Assembly (NCBI RefSeq): GCF_013299165.1 | Contig: NZ_JAAFKD010000018.1 | Span: forward strand, 80,159 to 144,158 | Source of the DNA: Microcoleus sp. bin38.metabat.b11b12b14.051 | GTDB taxonomy: Bacteria; Cyanobacteriota; Cyanobacteriia; Cyanobacteriales; Microcoleaceae | Length of the DNA stretch: 64,000 bases | Direction: 5' to 3' | Shown: positions 19,693 through 23,603 of the stretch, one piece after another | Position numbering within the stretch: the stretch's first letter is position 1 | How the letters are laid out: the number at the start of each line of letters is the position of its first letter | Translations under genes and position numbers: made by a program | The notes under the pieces: generated by a model | Database searches by the model: none | What the model was told of the DNA's origin: nothing | The model's input: the letters and a program-made list of their open reading frames with translations, nothing else

Positions 19693-20138
19693 TGATAATT
19701 GGGAATTGGGAATTGGGGATTGGGAATGGGTTTTTCTCGATCGCCCCAAATTAGATAGTAGCTCGTTTCAATCCTCAGTCTCACAAAAAACTCTCTATCT
19801 TAAGGTAGATGCCTCGGTTCAGAAATACTGATATTTTCAGAATTCATTCTCAATAGGCGATCGCCAGTCTAGCACTGTATGTGTAAAAGCGATCGATCTA
19901 ACTCGCACCCGTTAAACTCTCAAAAGTAGGCATTGCAAGGGAGTTAGTTTAATTCTCAGCTCGGCTAGAGACTCATATTCAGCATTTTTCCAGCAGCTTA
20001 TTGAAAATTATTACTAACTACTTGCGTACTTTATTGACTTCATGTTAGGCTTCTACTCAAAGCTGAAAATGCAGCCCTAACGTCAGAGTCTGGGCATATT
20101 TCAGCGAAATGGGTGTCATACAACAATTGGAGACCATT
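19693..20138. other. Gene-free interval upstream of the peptide gene
   Basis: Begins with AATTGGG-type simple repeats (19693-19735), then unremarkable AT-rich DNA with several GCGATCG-containing sites. It should contain the divergent promoters of the methyltransferase and of the peptide gene at 20139, but no clear -10/-35 pair was singled out. Confidence 0.5.
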
Positions 20139-20291
20139 ATGTCAAAGGAAATCAACGGATCGGCTCTAAAACTGTCCCGGGCTAGCAAAATCCAAGTAGA
20201 AGTCAAGGAAATTGCCAAGCACGCCACAGCTAAAAACATCTCTTCTGCGCTTAATGTTGATGCCGATGGCAGCGATGTTACTAACGAGTAA
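20139..20291 (+). CDS. Small 50-residue peptide, candidate modified-peptide precursor
   Basis: Begins at the ATG at 20139 preceded by TTGGAGACCATT (GGAG at 7-nt spacing). The first ~35 residues are helical and basic (SALKLSRASKIQVEVKEIAK, then HATAK), while the last ~15 are small, polar and acidic with no Lys or Arg (NISSALNVDADGSDVTNE). This leader-like/core-like contrast, the small size, an intergenic hairpin and the following JmjC/cupin oxygenase and redox protein genes suggest a ribosomally made, post-translationally modified peptide. No known RiPP leader motif (for example microviridin, cyanobactin or Nif11) is recognised. An in-frame ATG at 20109 is less likely because it lacks a ribosome-binding site. 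Confidence 0.6.
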   Translation: MSKEINGSALKLSRASKIQVEVKEIAKHATAKNISSALNVDADGSDVTNE

Positions 20292-20373
20292 TTGCAGGTT
20301 TTTTCATTAGACTTCGCATCCCCAAGCAAGAAGTAGTAAATTTTACTGTTGTCTGTCGGGAAGTGTGGAGTAA

Positions 20374-20403
20374 TTGAGGGCAAGCTCAAAGCATTGTCCT
20401 CAA
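20374..20403 (+). promoter_or_regulatory. Intergenic hairpin between peptide gene and oxygenase gene
   Basis: TTGAGGGCAA pairs with TTGTCCTCAA (10 bp with one G-T pair, 10-nt loop) and is followed by TTATTCAATTGTT. A stem-loop in this position can lower transcription of downstream genes relative to the peptide gene, as often seen after precursor genes. It lacks a clean U-run, so it could instead be an RNA-processing site. Confidence 0.55.
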
Positions 20404-20450
20404 TTATTCAATTGTTCAAAAGTTATTGAGAAGTTTTATCAATATAATTT

Positions 20451-21605
20451 ATGCGATCGATCGCGAATCTACTCAAACCATACAATTTAGAAGATTTTCT
20501 AGATAACAACTGGACAAACAAAGCAGTTGTTATTCCTAGCGAAGGAAACAAAGACTTTGCACACCTATTTTCCTGGGAAAAACTCAACTACATTCTGAAC
20601 TTTCACGAATTAAAATATCCCGACATTCGCTTAGCAGTAGCAGGAAAAATTCTCGACGAAAGCGAAAACGCAAATCTCATCAAACTTTGCCAATCTGGAG
20701 CAACTTTAATAGTCAATCAAGTTCACAAACTAATTCCAGAAATAGCTGAATTTGCGGCCGAACTAAAAGCAGATTTAGGCTATCCAAACCAAGTAAATGC
20801 CTACTGTTCCTGGCCCGAAAAACAGGGGTTTTCTTCCCACTACGACACCCACGAAGTTTTTATCTTACAAACAGACGGCATCAAGCAGTGGTATGTATTT
20901 GCAGACACAATTAAATACCCGCTTACAGACCAAAAATCCTCCACATTTCCGCCACCAGAAACTCCACCGTATTTAACCTGCACTTTGCATCCCGGAGATG
21001 TGCTTTACATACCGCGTGGACATTGGCATTATGCCGTTGCTTCCGATGAACCATCGCTGCATTTAACATTAGGAATTCACGGGAAAACAGGAATTGACCT
21101 TTTAGAATGGTTGGTAGGCGAATTGCGGCAACAAGAAGAGTGGCGTAAAAGTTTACCGCTGCGAATCAACCCAGATTCCATTGATGTAAGTGTAAATAAT
21201 TTAATTGCCCAATTGCACCGCTACGCAAACACCAAAAATCTTGGAGACGAGTACAGCAGCTACCTAGATAGTTTAGCGAAACCGGTGGCGAAATATTCTC
21301 TCCCTTATCAAGCAGGGTTCAACATTTTCCCCTGCGGCATCCAAACTAAGTTTAGAATTCCCAAGTTTCTGCGGGTAAAAATTCGCGAATTACCTGACGG
21401 ATGTGGATACAAAGTTGTTGTTGGAGGTAAAGAAGTATCTCTGAAAGGAGTAACGGATAAATTCATGGACAATCTATTCAGTACAGAATTTTTTACAGGA
21501 GAGGATGTGATGGATTGGTTGCCGGATTATGATTGGGAAATAGATGTAGTGCCGCTTTTGTCTAGGTTAGTAGTTGACGGAATTATTTTTGTTGGTTACA
21601 ACTAG
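20451..21605 (+). CDS. JmjC/cupin-type Fe(II)/2-oxoglutarate oxygenase
   Basis: 384 residues of the cupin_4 (YcfD/MINA53/NO66-like) class. The iron-binding triad is visible: H130-x-D132 in GFSSHYDTHEVF and distal H193 in GDVLYIPRGHWHYAV. FILQTDGIKQWYVF and PGDVLYIPRG are hallmark strands of the double-stranded beta helix. The C-terminal ~150 residues form the helical/winged-helix part typical of ribosomal oxygenases. Known members hydroxylate protein side chains (Arg of L16, His of ribosomal proteins). It follows the 50-residue peptide gene by 159 bp and precedes a Suc/Fer-like gene by 67 bp, so the peptide is a plausible substrate. A ribosomal substrate remains possible. Confidence 0.85.
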   Translation: MRSIANLLKPYNLEDFLDNNWTNKAVVIPSEGNKDFAHLFSWEKLNYILNFHELKYPDIRLAVAGKILDESENANLIKLCQSGATLIVNQVHKLIPEIAEFAAELKADLGYPNQVNAYCSWPEKQGFSSHYDTHEVFILQTDGIKQWYVFADTIKYPLTDQKSSTFPPPETPPYLTCTLHPGDVLYIPRGHWHYAVASDEPSLHLTLGIHGKTGIDLLEWLVGELRQQEEWRKSLPLRINPDSIDVSVNNLIAQLHRYANTKNLGDEYSSYLDSLAKPVAKYSLPYQAGFNIFPCGIQTKFRIPKFLRVKIRELPDGCGYKVVVGGKEVSLKGVTDKFMDNLFSTEFFTGEDVMDWLPDYDWEIDVVPLLSRLVVDGIIFVGYN

Positions 21606-21672
21606 AGAAGGGTACTAGCTGTAATAAATGGGTTGTTAAAAGAGTAATTTATGACACATAATGAGGTAGAAA

Positions 21673-22695
21673 ATGCCGGATACTTTTTTTTGCGCCGATG
21701 CTTCTAAATGCGTTCAAGAGGATATTATTGGGACTGGTACTAATTACCAAACCTATGTATTGATTGAATGCTGTTTGCCTTGGGAATCAGAAGCTTTTAA
21801 TTCTAAACAAGTTCCCCAGAGTCTCAGGGATTTGGTGGAGGAAGTAGAGCATTTTCAGCAAAAAATTAGATTTTTGTTGATAAATAGCGACCAAACTAAA
21901 TGTGCTGATCAGCGCAAGGTTTTGATTTATGACAACAAAAGTCAAGAACTTTTTGACGGTTACGAAAAGCACGAATTTAATGTAGATGACATTGACAAAG
22001 TAGCGGGAATTGTCAAAAGCTATTTAGCTGGCGAAGTCCCAGATTGTGAAGTTGAAGATAACGCAAGTAGAGATATTTTGGTTTGCACTCATGGGAGTCA
22101 TGATAGATGTTGCGCGAGATACGGCAATCCTTTTTACGCGGAAGCAACAGCTTTGGTTTCGGAGTTAGAATTGAGTGGTGTTCGTGTTTGGAAATCTAGT
22201 CATTTTGGCGGACACCGCATGGCACCGACTGCGATTGATTTGCGTGACGGCAGATATTACGGAAATCTCGATCGCACTTCGTTCAAATCTATTCTAACGC
22301 GAACTGGCGATATTGAATGTTTGAATCAGGTTTATCGGGGTTGGGGGATTTTGCCGAACCAAATTCAAGTTTTGGAACGAGATTTTATTATGCGCTATGG
22401 GTGGGATTGGTTCAATTACAAAGTTTCAGGCTGCATTGTAGAGAAAAATCTTGAAAATGATGGTTTCGTGGCTGAATTAACTTTTGAAAAAGTTGATGGT
22501 ACTTATGTCTATCGGGCTGAGTTGGCTAAAGATGAAACTAAAACAGTTCGACTTAAAGGTTCCTGTGGCGCTAAACAAGAATCGGAGTTTGTTAAGTATT
22601 TGGTAAAGGATTCTTACTTTTACTCGAAGAAAGAGGAGTTAAAGTTTGTGATTTATCCGGTAATTCCGCAGCCGATATTAGTAGAGATAATGTGA
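21673..22695 (+). CDS. Sucrase/ferredoxin-like (Suc/Fer) thioredoxin-fold iron-sulphur protein
   Basis: 340 residues. The central segment ILVCTHGSHDRCCARYGNPF followed by VRVWKSSHFGGHRMAPTAID and LRDGRYYGNLD is the signature of the Suc/Fer-like family, whose thioredoxin-like ferredoxin domain binds a 2Fe-2S cluster through Cys and His residues. The N-terminal ~120 residues contain CADASKC and a second domain. Despite the family name it is not a sucrase. Sitting immediately downstream of a JmjC oxygenase and a small peptide gene, it might supply electrons or keep iron reduced for the oxygenase; that role is inferred. Confidence 0.85.
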   Translation: MPDTFFCADASKCVQEDIIGTGTNYQTYVLIECCLPWESEAFNSKQVPQSLRDLVEEVEHFQQKIRFLLINSDQTKCADQRKVLIYDNKSQELFDGYEKHEFNVDDIDKVAGIVKSYLAGEVPDCEVEDNASRDILVCTHGSHDRCCARYGNPFYAEATALVSELELSGVRVWKSSHFGGHRMAPTAIDLRDGRYYGNLDRTSFKSILTRTGDIECLNQVYRGWGILPNQIQVLERDFIMRYGWDWFNYKVSGCIVEKNLENDGFVAELTFEKVDGTYVYRAELAKDETKTVRLKGSCGAKQESEFVKYLVKDSYFYSKKEELKFVIYPVIPQPILVEIM

Positions 22696-22742: not shown

Positions 22743-23149
22743 GGTTCGTAGTGAGGACTTTAGTCCGCATCCATCCGAGGACTAAAGTCCTCACTACGAA
22801 CCTTTTGATTACGGGTATTTTTTATTACAAAGAAGGACTAAAGTCCTCACTACGAACCTGTTTTTTGTGAGAGTTCAATTTCTTGAAAAGAAGGACTAAA
22901 GTCCTCACTACGAACCTGTTTTTTGTGAGAGTTCAATTTCTCGAAAAGAAGGACTAAAGTCCTCACTACGAACCTGTTTTTTGTGAGAGTTCAATTTCTC
23001 GAAAAGAAGGACTAAAGTCCTCACTACGAACCTGTTTTTTGTGAGAGTTCAATTTCTCGAAAAGAAGGACTAAAGTCCTCACTACGAACCTGTTTTTTGT
23101 GAGAGTTCAATTTCTCGAAAAGAAGGACTAAAGTCCTCACTACGAACTT
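22743..23149. repeat. R1 repeat array with six 58-bp spaced inverted copies
   Basis: One direct R1 copy starts at 22743, then an inverted copy (22778-22803). Further inverted copies (GAAGGACTAAAGTCCTCACT) start at 22832, 22890, 22948, 23006, 23064 and 23122, exactly 58 bp apart, and five of the 32-bp intervals between them are near-identical (TTTTTTGTGAGAGTTCAATT). It is a tandem amplification of a repeat plus flank, not a CRISPR, because the intervals do not differ. It fills the convergent gap between the Suc/Fer gene and the acetyltransferase gene. Confidence 0.93.
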
Positions 23150-23165
23150 TATATTATGACAGGGA

Positions 23166-23603
23166 TTAGAACTCTAACTGCATGAATACGTGCGGGATTC
23201 CCAGGTAATCAAAGGGATTTTCTTGTTCGACAAATCCGAGGTTTTGGTAAAAATGAACGGCGTTAATCCGAGACATCAGTCTTAGGCTTTGGAAATTCTT
23301 TTCCTTAGCTTGTGCGATCAATTTTTCCATCAACTTAGTGCCGATTCCCTGGTTTTGAAACTCAGGAAGTACGGCAATATAAGAGATGCTTCCCAATTCT
23401 GGGGATAATTCTCGGAGTCTGCCTGATGCGATGATTGTGCGATCGCCCTTTGCTGCTATGATATGACAAGCACCGTTCTCGTGATTGTCCCTTTCACTGC
23501 CCCTTTCCATGCCCAGGGGCGATCGCAAAACCAACCACCGCTGGTAAAACATATCCTCTAATTCTTGTGCGTTTTGAACCTGACGTATATCTATATTTGG
23601 CAT
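23166..23603 (-). CDS. GNAT-family N-acetyltransferase
   Basis: 145 residues, single domain. The acetyl-CoA-binding motif A is visible as ISYIAVLPEFQNQGIGTKLM (QNQGIG pyrophosphate loop) and motif B as AVHFYQNLGFVEQENPF. The N-terminus IRQVQNAQELEDMFYQRWLV resembles stand-alone bacterial acetyltransferases (ElaA/YjdJ-like). Substrate unknown. It is flanked by R1 repeats on both sides and shows no operon partner. Confidence 0.87.
   Translation of the reverse strand: MPNIDIRQVQNAQELEDMFYQRWLVLRSPLGMERGSERDNHENGACHIIAAKGDRTIIASGRLRELSPELGSISYIAVLPEFQNQGIGTKLMEKLIAQAKEKNFQSLRLMSRINAVHFYQNLGFVEQENPFDYLGIPHVFMQLEF

Follow-up and report, generated by a model that had tools for sequence, protein, structure and literature searches.

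A peptide–JmjC–Suc/Fer gene cassette of filamentous cyanobacteria: a likely ribosomal peptide pathway with a probable metal-chelating product

What is made by a gene cassette in which a short peptide gene is followed by a JmjC oxygenase gene and a gene for a Suc/Fer iron–sulfur protein? The question is raised by a 64,000-nucleotide stretch of the filamentous cyanobacterium Microcoleus sp. bin38.metabat.b11b12b14.051 (assembly GCF_013299165.1, contig NZ_JAAFKD010000018.1, positions 80,159 to 144,158 of the forward strand), which is called the window here and provides the coordinates; among named organisms, its closest relatives are Microcoleus, Tychonema and similar genera. A first-pass annotation of the window proposed that the three genes form a modified-peptide pathway, in which the oxygenase acts on the tail of the peptide and is supported by the Suc/Fer protein. 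The case for a pathway proved stronger than stated, with a cassette that spans many genera, precursors with several cores and a sister group of related loci. The locus likely represents a previously undescribed family of ribosomally synthesized and post-translationally modified peptides (RiPPs) with a metal-chelating product, iron being the most likely metal. The reality of the genes, the linkage of precursor to enzyme, the leader and core anatomy, the linkage of Suc/Fer and the presence of siderophore-transport genes around relatives of the cassette are established.

All three genes lie on the plus strand, and their annotated coordinates were correct on re-checking. The precursor peptide (MSKEINGSALKLSRASKIQVEVKEIAKHATAKNISSALNVDADGSDVTNE, 50 residues) is encoded by an open reading frame at 20139–20291. 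It has its own ribosome-binding site as annotated, with GGAG located 8 nt 5′ of the start, and this is retained across genera in an upstream alignment. There follows a JmjC_2/cupin_4 2-oxoglutarate/Fe(II) oxygenase of 384 residues (20451–21605; PF08007, 8.8e-25), whose HxD...H triad (H130, D132 and H193) is intact as annotated and invariant in 53 homologues. The Suc_Fer-like protein, of the thioredoxin-like [2Fe-2S] ferredoxin type, starts 67 bp past the JmjC stop (21673–22695; PF06999, 7.8e-30). The window peptide has no Pfam or NCBIfam match at E ≤ 1, and a three-core relative from Okeania has no NCBIfam match at E ≤ 0.1. The peptide gene is real, because over 13 same-genus copies the ratio of nonsynonymous to synonymous substitution (dN/dS) is about 0.18 and residues 16–27 are without any amino-acid change.

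Peptide and oxygenase co-occur strictly. Within the genus, the genomes that carry the peptide are the same 14 that carry its close JmjC, the window's own included, and the two genes are always adjacent. Over 386 genomes from across the phylum, 25 of which carry the JmjC family, a peptide profile gave 8 strong matches and each of these has an adjacent JmjC gene (8/8). By simple arithmetic that does not correct for shared ancestry, the probability of this overlap by chance is about 1e-10. One extra match in the 386 genomes (E 0.004) has an internal stop and looks like chance. The co-occurrence in other genomes that the first-pass annotation had suggested testing is thus present: the cassette recurs across cyanobacterial families, and the peptide is conserved beside the oxygenase in relatives. 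The first observation named in the annotation as one that would refute the pathway, a peptide not conserved at this position, was therefore looked for and did not materialize.

The partner genes follow the oxygenase as well. A scan of named genomes produced 80 JmjC loci, which were split mainly by similarity rank: group 1 (n = 57) comprises the loci ranked above L099 plus L100, L113 and L122, which were placed there on account of their peptides, while group 2 (n = 23) is the sister group. A Suc/Fer gene adjoins JmjC in 49 of the 57 group-1 loci, several of the missing cases being contig ends, versus 0/23 in group 2. The corresponding numbers for a GNAT acetyltransferase gene are 42/57 and 0/23, and those for a minimal-nucleotidyltransferase-like gene are 0/57 and 11/23. 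On a tree of 71 enzymes inferred by maximum likelihood, a single change is enough to separate the Suc/Fer labels from the nucleotidyltransferase labels (support 83/90), where shuffled labels give a mean of 13.

Peptides of approximately 40–66 residues are found upstream of group-1 JmjC genes. They share a middle section, R-x-S-K-I-Q-[VI]-E-V-K-[DE]-[IL], with SKIQVEVKEI as the leader form. In the window, this is the leader recognition motif SKIQVEVKEIAK (residues 16–27; 20184–20219), which is invariant in the genus, conserved across families and predicted to form a strand at residues 19–24. The annotated basic, helical first part of the peptide is therefore only partly right, since the invariant piece of the leader is a β-strand motif and not basic-helical. 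In the tails, N-x-D-[AS]-D-G-[GS]-D occurs once, twice or three times. There is one core in Microcoleus, which by alignment and tail comparison is NVDADGSD with its three Asp (residues 39–46; 20253–20276), two in Scytonema, Brasilonema and Symploca, and three in Okeania (NFDADGGDRNFDADGGDRNFDADGGDRHH, with NFDADGGDR three times). The usual number of Asp per core is three, but a few cores have four or five and a single one has two; the only constant residues are Asp and Gly, and there are no Cys and few Tyr. The tail alignment suggested in the annotation thus yields a conserved leader with variable and repeated tails. A fixed leader followed by a variable, sometimes multiplied core is the anatomy of a RiPP precursor, and the short encoded precursor lies beside a modifying enzyme in relatives, as in RiPP systems. 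As the tails of different genera converge on approximately three Asp and on tandem cores, the oxygenase likely acts on the Asp-rich tail, in agreement with the original proposal.

Is the JmjC protein the enzyme of such a pathway or an ordinary ribosomal-protein oxygenase? It is a jelly-roll protein with HxD...H iron ligands that belongs to PF08007, and its structure was predicted with a mean predicted local distance difference test (pLDDT) score of 92.6. Structurally, it is closest to NO66 (Z about 29), MINA53 and YcfD (Z 19–29, identity 18–25%, or 19–25% for NO66 and MINA53), with which it shares a three-domain fold and the HxD...H site, and the sequence match to NO66 is 1.5e-34. These matches favor the second view, in which the peptide would be an unmodified regulator or a chance neighbor. 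However, the identity to these enzymes is low, their substrates are ribosomal proteins and they have no adjacent precursor peptide, whereas the cassette enzyme forms a separate sequence clade that travels with peptides. The strict co-occurrence of peptide and JmjC, adjacent across families, the conserved leader, the tandem cores and the partner genes that track the JmjC tree also argue against an ordinary ribosomal oxygenase, which is considered highly improbable.

The C-terminal region of the oxygenase (residues 300–384) has a winged-helix-like domain with three strands followed by three helices, which is the order of the RiPP recognition element (RRE), although ribosomal oxygenases also have a winged helix there. 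For docking, a one-chain surrogate was modeled from 20139–21602, where peptide and JmjC are in the same frame and the stops were read as Gly. Here, the leader block has pLDDT 81–86 and forms a strand at residues 19–24, while the intergenic linker is mostly below 50. The model suggests that the leader docks on the JmjC protein. Overall, the peptide is very probably the substrate of this enzyme.

In the proposed explanation, the leader strand SKIQVEVKEI would dock on the oxygenase, probably on the C-terminal winged-helix domain, and the oxygenase would then hydroxylate Asp of the DADGSD core to β-hydroxy-Asp. Asp β-hydroxylation by the JmjC protein is judged fairly likely. A different oxidation of the core (Asn hydroxylation, desaturation, a cross-link or backbone cleavage) that leads to an antimicrobial or signaling peptide is improbable, even though JmjC and other 2-oxoglutarate enzymes have varied RiPP chemistry. 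Examples are the hydroxylation of Orn by BpmG (PMC12257519) and the α-ketoglutarate-dependent macrocyclization reported in JACS in 2025, which is a Cys–Tyr cross-link according to its citation in PMC12636437. Group-2 precursors with Asn/Ser repeats also fit this alternative. A Cys–Tyr cross-link is a misfit for group-1 cores, which are without Cys and have few Tyr and in which only Asp and Gly are constant; in addition, most cassettes have no immunity gene or dedicated exporter gene beside them.

β-Hydroxylation of Asp would permit the next step, in which approximately three β-hydroxy-Asp residues form a hexadentate Fe(III) chelator that may serve as a ribosomal siderophore or as an iron-buffering peptide. 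The core also resembles another kind of metal site. It is possible, if unlikely, that the ligand of the hydroxylated peptide is calcium or another divalent metal, taken up in an EF-hand- or thrombospondin-like DxDxDG loop, and that the peptide has a structural or signaling role to which the redox role of Suc/Fer would be unrelated. Here, NVDADGSDVTNE fits positions 1, 3, 5, 6 and 12 of the 12-residue EF-hand loop, Asp β-hydroxylation is known in calcium-binding EGF domains and the related secreted precursors are very acidic repeats. The core, however, has Asp at position 8, which is hydrophobic in EF-hands, and many cores end at GGD without Glu12 (L096 and L097). Membership in the EF-hand family (DxDxDG..[ILV]...E) was ruled out by this Asp and by the absence of Glu12 from several cores. 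Calcium binding also leaves the ferredoxin and the siderophore-transport genes unexplained. Chelation of iron or another metal is given a slightly better than even chance of being the purpose of the pathway.

What, then, does the Suc/Fer protein do? All 48 full-length copies checked retain an intact CX8C...HX3H motif, as required of a PF06999 ferredoxin; in Aim32, this motif supplies the ligands of the cluster (PMC8482512). A sequence search of the PDB gave no solved Suc/Fer homologue. The first-pass annotation had the protein supporting the oxygenase, which amounts to a modified-peptide pathway of unspecified purpose in which Suc/Fer gives electrons to JmjC or re-reduces it. The position of Suc/Fer after JmjC on the same strand in the 49 group-1 loci is in its favor. 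Against this, JmjC homologues with leader-bearing precursors do without Suc/Fer in group 2, and it is well established that 2-oxoglutarate oxygenases require no ferredoxin. Outside JmjC loci, the closest homologues of Suc/Fer (43–48% identity; L153–L155, three loci in two genomes) have a TonB receptor gene on one side and an Fe-siderophore-binding lipoprotein gene on the other, or adjoin the pair, and have no JmjC. The helper role is thus probably wrong and, as a full account of the locus, quite unlikely.

Further evidence came from the surroundings of several cassettes. In L172, an AraC regulator, the peptide, JmjC, a TonB siderophore receptor, a periplasmic Fe-siderophore-binding-like (FecB-like) protein, an MFS transporter and Suc/Fer are encoded in this order on one strand, with Suc/Fer at the end, downstream of the transport genes, which speaks against a helper role. 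The receptor passes TIGR01783 (TonB-dependent siderophore receptor) with 396 bits versus a cut-off of 223.5 bits. In L173, a peptide–JmjC–Suc/Fer–GNAT block has genes for a TonB receptor and a FecB-like binding protein before it and one for an MFS transporter after it. The same transport genes accompany the decayed cassette L176 (G425), where JmjC (around 6934) is truncated by 137 N-terminal residues and the peptide was not found, and in L113 a TonB receptor lies approximately 4 kb from the cassette. None of the group-2 loci examined has a TonB receptor, binding protein or MFS transporter as company. The most economical interpretation of this company is an iron-chelate product with Suc/Fer as its reductase. 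Suc/Fer is probably not an electron donor for the oxygenase and may instead be a ferric-chelate reductase: as a [2Fe-2S] thioredoxin-like ferredoxin, it would reduce the ferric complex and so release the iron, a role suggested by its genomic company.

Taken as a whole, a small RiPP pathway that makes a ribosomal Fe(III) chelator, from which Suc/Fer releases iron by reduction, has about an even chance of being correct. Several observations weigh against it. Few loci have siderophore-transport genes: three belong to one family and the fourth is L113. A TonB receptor barrel is absent from the window's genome, where the receptor query matches only an AMIN segment. TonB-mediated uptake therefore cannot operate in this organism, and it follows that the peptide acts inside the cell, is exported and used by another route, or has another purpose. 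No export gene or leader peptidase was seen in the window cassette. A linked receptor, binding protein and exporter occur in L172 and L173 and not in the window's genome, so that the window locus may be said to work like a siderophore system rather than to be one. The DxDG core resembles calcium-binding loops, as described above, and the core from G206 falls short of three Asp, with two plus Glu. The hydroxylation of core Asp is itself putative, as are its sites and their number. Finally, Fur-like boxes are absent from the transport-linked loci tested, L172 and L173 among them.

The putative regulatory elements of the cassette include two palindromes. Upstream of the peptide, a putative operator/promoter (20001–20050, plus strand) contains the palindrome-like TTGAAAATTATTACTAA (20001–20017), followed by a −35-like TTGCGT and a weak −10. 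TTGAAAATTATTACTAA differs from a Fur-like consensus at three positions, and no shuffle was equally good. Of 25 loci aligned from many genera, most conserve a ATTGAAAATnATTCTCAACTA-like element with the promoter-like −35, located approximately −115 to −150 relative to the start of the peptide. Just 5′ of the JmjC start lies a second, Fur-family-box-like palindrome, TGAGAAGTTTTATCA (20427–20441, plus strand), whose window copy has three mismatches to TGATAATNATTATCA and whose function is likewise putative. The pre-JmjC palindrome matches the published 7-1-7 Fur consensus in 27 of 57 group-1 loci versus 0 of 23 group-2 loci (p ≤ 0.05 versus shuffles). Near-copies inflate this count, but the box also occurs in Scytonema, Brasilonema, Microseira, Moorena and Iningainema. 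The consensus was fixed ahead of this test, but the genus alignment had already been seen. Fur would not normally be expected to bind at a ribosome-binding site, where this box lies, and the box is degenerate in the window; Zur, PerR or an RNA effect may lie behind it. Of the Fur-box tests, only this positional, cross-genus one carries weight. A count of boxes in the window's own genome at two mismatches was uninformative (29 versus 36 for a reversed-pattern control), and the 250 nt before JmjC were rejected as a control for the upstream motif, as they carry a second motif of their own.

The hairpin annotated at 20374–20403 between peptide and JmjC is real, with a main stem at 20368–20409 on the plus strand (−26.7 kcal/mol, z −6.4), and is a possible attenuator. 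It is absent from several same-genus copies, which rules it out as a conserved element within the genus and as a defining part of the locus.

How does the cassette compare with known systems? In the biphenomycin RiPP pathway, the JmjC-domain enzyme BpmG hydroxylates an ornithine of a ribosomal precursor (PMC12257519), much as the cassette oxygenase is proposed to act on a precursor side chain. There, it is one tailoring step amid MNIO, arginase and B12-radical SAM enzymes, whereas here JmjC is the only recognizable peptide-modifying enzyme, the core is made of Asp and Gly and the partner is Suc/Fer. According to Bregman et al. (2025), fish and algae have fusions of PF08007 to RRE-like folds, and bacterial PF08007 homologues (approximately 30% identity) occur in RiPP-like contexts (PMC12710340). 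The C-terminal domain of the window enzyme, as noted above, has three strands and then three helices; the accessible sections of their account describe no precursor, core, partner, function, or link to Suc/Fer or iron. Methanobactins (PMC3621798) and bufferins (as cited in PMC12710340) are also gene-encoded, enzyme-modified, metal-binding peptides. They differ in binding copper and not iron, and in using MNIO/DUF692 enzymes without JmjC or Suc/Fer. Aim32 and other Suc_Fer ferredoxins share the CX8C...HX3H bis-His [2Fe-2S] motif, but Aim32 is a mitochondrial redox quality-control protein (PMC8482512), whereas the cassette subfamily sits with peptide–JmjC and siderophore-uptake genes.

A chemical counterpart would be the β-hydroxyaspartate siderophores. 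These are made by nonribosomal peptide synthetases, use β-hydroxy-Asp as a bidentate iron ligand and depend on hydroxylases unrelated to the JmjC protein described here. The same ligand is proposed for the cassette product, which would be gene-encoded. The open literature contains no description of a JmjC/Suc-Fer peptide class or of a ribosomal iron siderophore; subscription papers were mostly outside this coverage and may hold prior work. We tentatively propose, at somewhat less than even confidence, a class of ribosomal iron siderophores in cyanobacteria that include Trichodesmium, Okeania, Moorena and Microcoleus. In this class, multicore DxDGxD precursors would be converted by a leader-guided JmjC enzyme to tri-(β-hydroxy-Asp) Fe(III) ligands and be served by a dedicated Suc/Fer reductase. 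If true, this would be a RiPP family whose main modifying enzyme is a JmjC/cupin_4 protein with ribosomal-oxygenase architecture, and a gene-encoded counterpart of the nonribosomal siderophores in filamentous and bloom-forming cyanobacteria, whose growth and nitrogen fixation are iron-limited. An orphan Suc_Fer subfamily would also gain a function.

The sister group has precursors of another kind. They begin with a signal peptide, continue with a strand motif, S-I-E-V-E-V-x-x-L, and end in Asp/Asn/Ser/Tyr/Gln repeats. The group appears to be an unstudied system for the hydroxylation of secreted proteins, and its combination of secreted acidic repeat proteins, JmjC and a nucleotidyltransferase-like gene suggests that leader-guided protein hydroxylation by JmjC enzymes is widespread, and unstudied, in cyanobacteria. 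Exported precursors with a SIEVEVVNL-like motif and long repeats (NSNSNSDSDS, DYDQDYDQ) were seen at sister loci L103–L121 and L184–L207, for example L106 (5611–5898), L114 and L186. The nucleotidyltransferase-like gene is often convergent, and a Pfam search of one copy found nothing. Two Streptomyces JmjC homologues (L116 and L124) have peptides of 46–47 residues (MAKIPAAPKSEVHAGRQPKRIGFSVETVKTAQVKSVPNLEVDQKDV) just upstream with the same kind of strand motif, and the theme therefore reaches actinobacteria. In L042 (1021–1335), and upstream of the JmjC gene in L099 and L180, JmjC is accompanied by peptides of 102–104 residues with double-glycine-like leaders (MIISDLNYLEVAQE...GG) and VDVDVDQDFNVDIDVDVD tracts, in two tandem copies in L042. 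More distant JmjC homologues have a lasso-leader-like peptide (YEQPSLKKYGTMKDFTLG) or a LanC-like gene as neighbor (L145, 889–1158; L147 and L148, 183–1332); these neighbors are further hints of RiPP use of JmjC enzymes.

Variants of the cassette itself were also noted. A divergent form in L156 (5674–8300; G018) has two tandem 46-residue peptides with ...RPKFTKQTWESGEN-type tails, followed by JmjC and Suc/Fer. In L152 (3296–4906; G026), a decayed cassette retains Suc/Fer and GNAT without JmjC and peptide, while L075, L076, L084 and L089, also decayed and mainly from Rhizonema, retain JmjC and show no peptide or Suc/Fer within the contig present. Extra C-terminal pieces of JmjC (residues 290–381 and 327–381) are repeated just downstream of the gene in L043 and L044 (G035, Okeania).

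In the window, the GNAT acetyltransferase gene is convergent with the cassette (23166–23603, minus strand; Acetyltransf_1, 5.3e-18), was not listed in the first-pass annotation and is either accessory or simply a neighbor. Several genomes have GNAT but not the cassette, and in two it lies on a different contig, which ruled it out as an obligate member of the pathway; it is a frequent neighbor. Between Suc/Fer and GNAT, at 22829–23147, lies a tandem array of a 58-bp unit in 5.5 copies with 99% matches, which contains the palindrome AGGACTAAAGTCCT.

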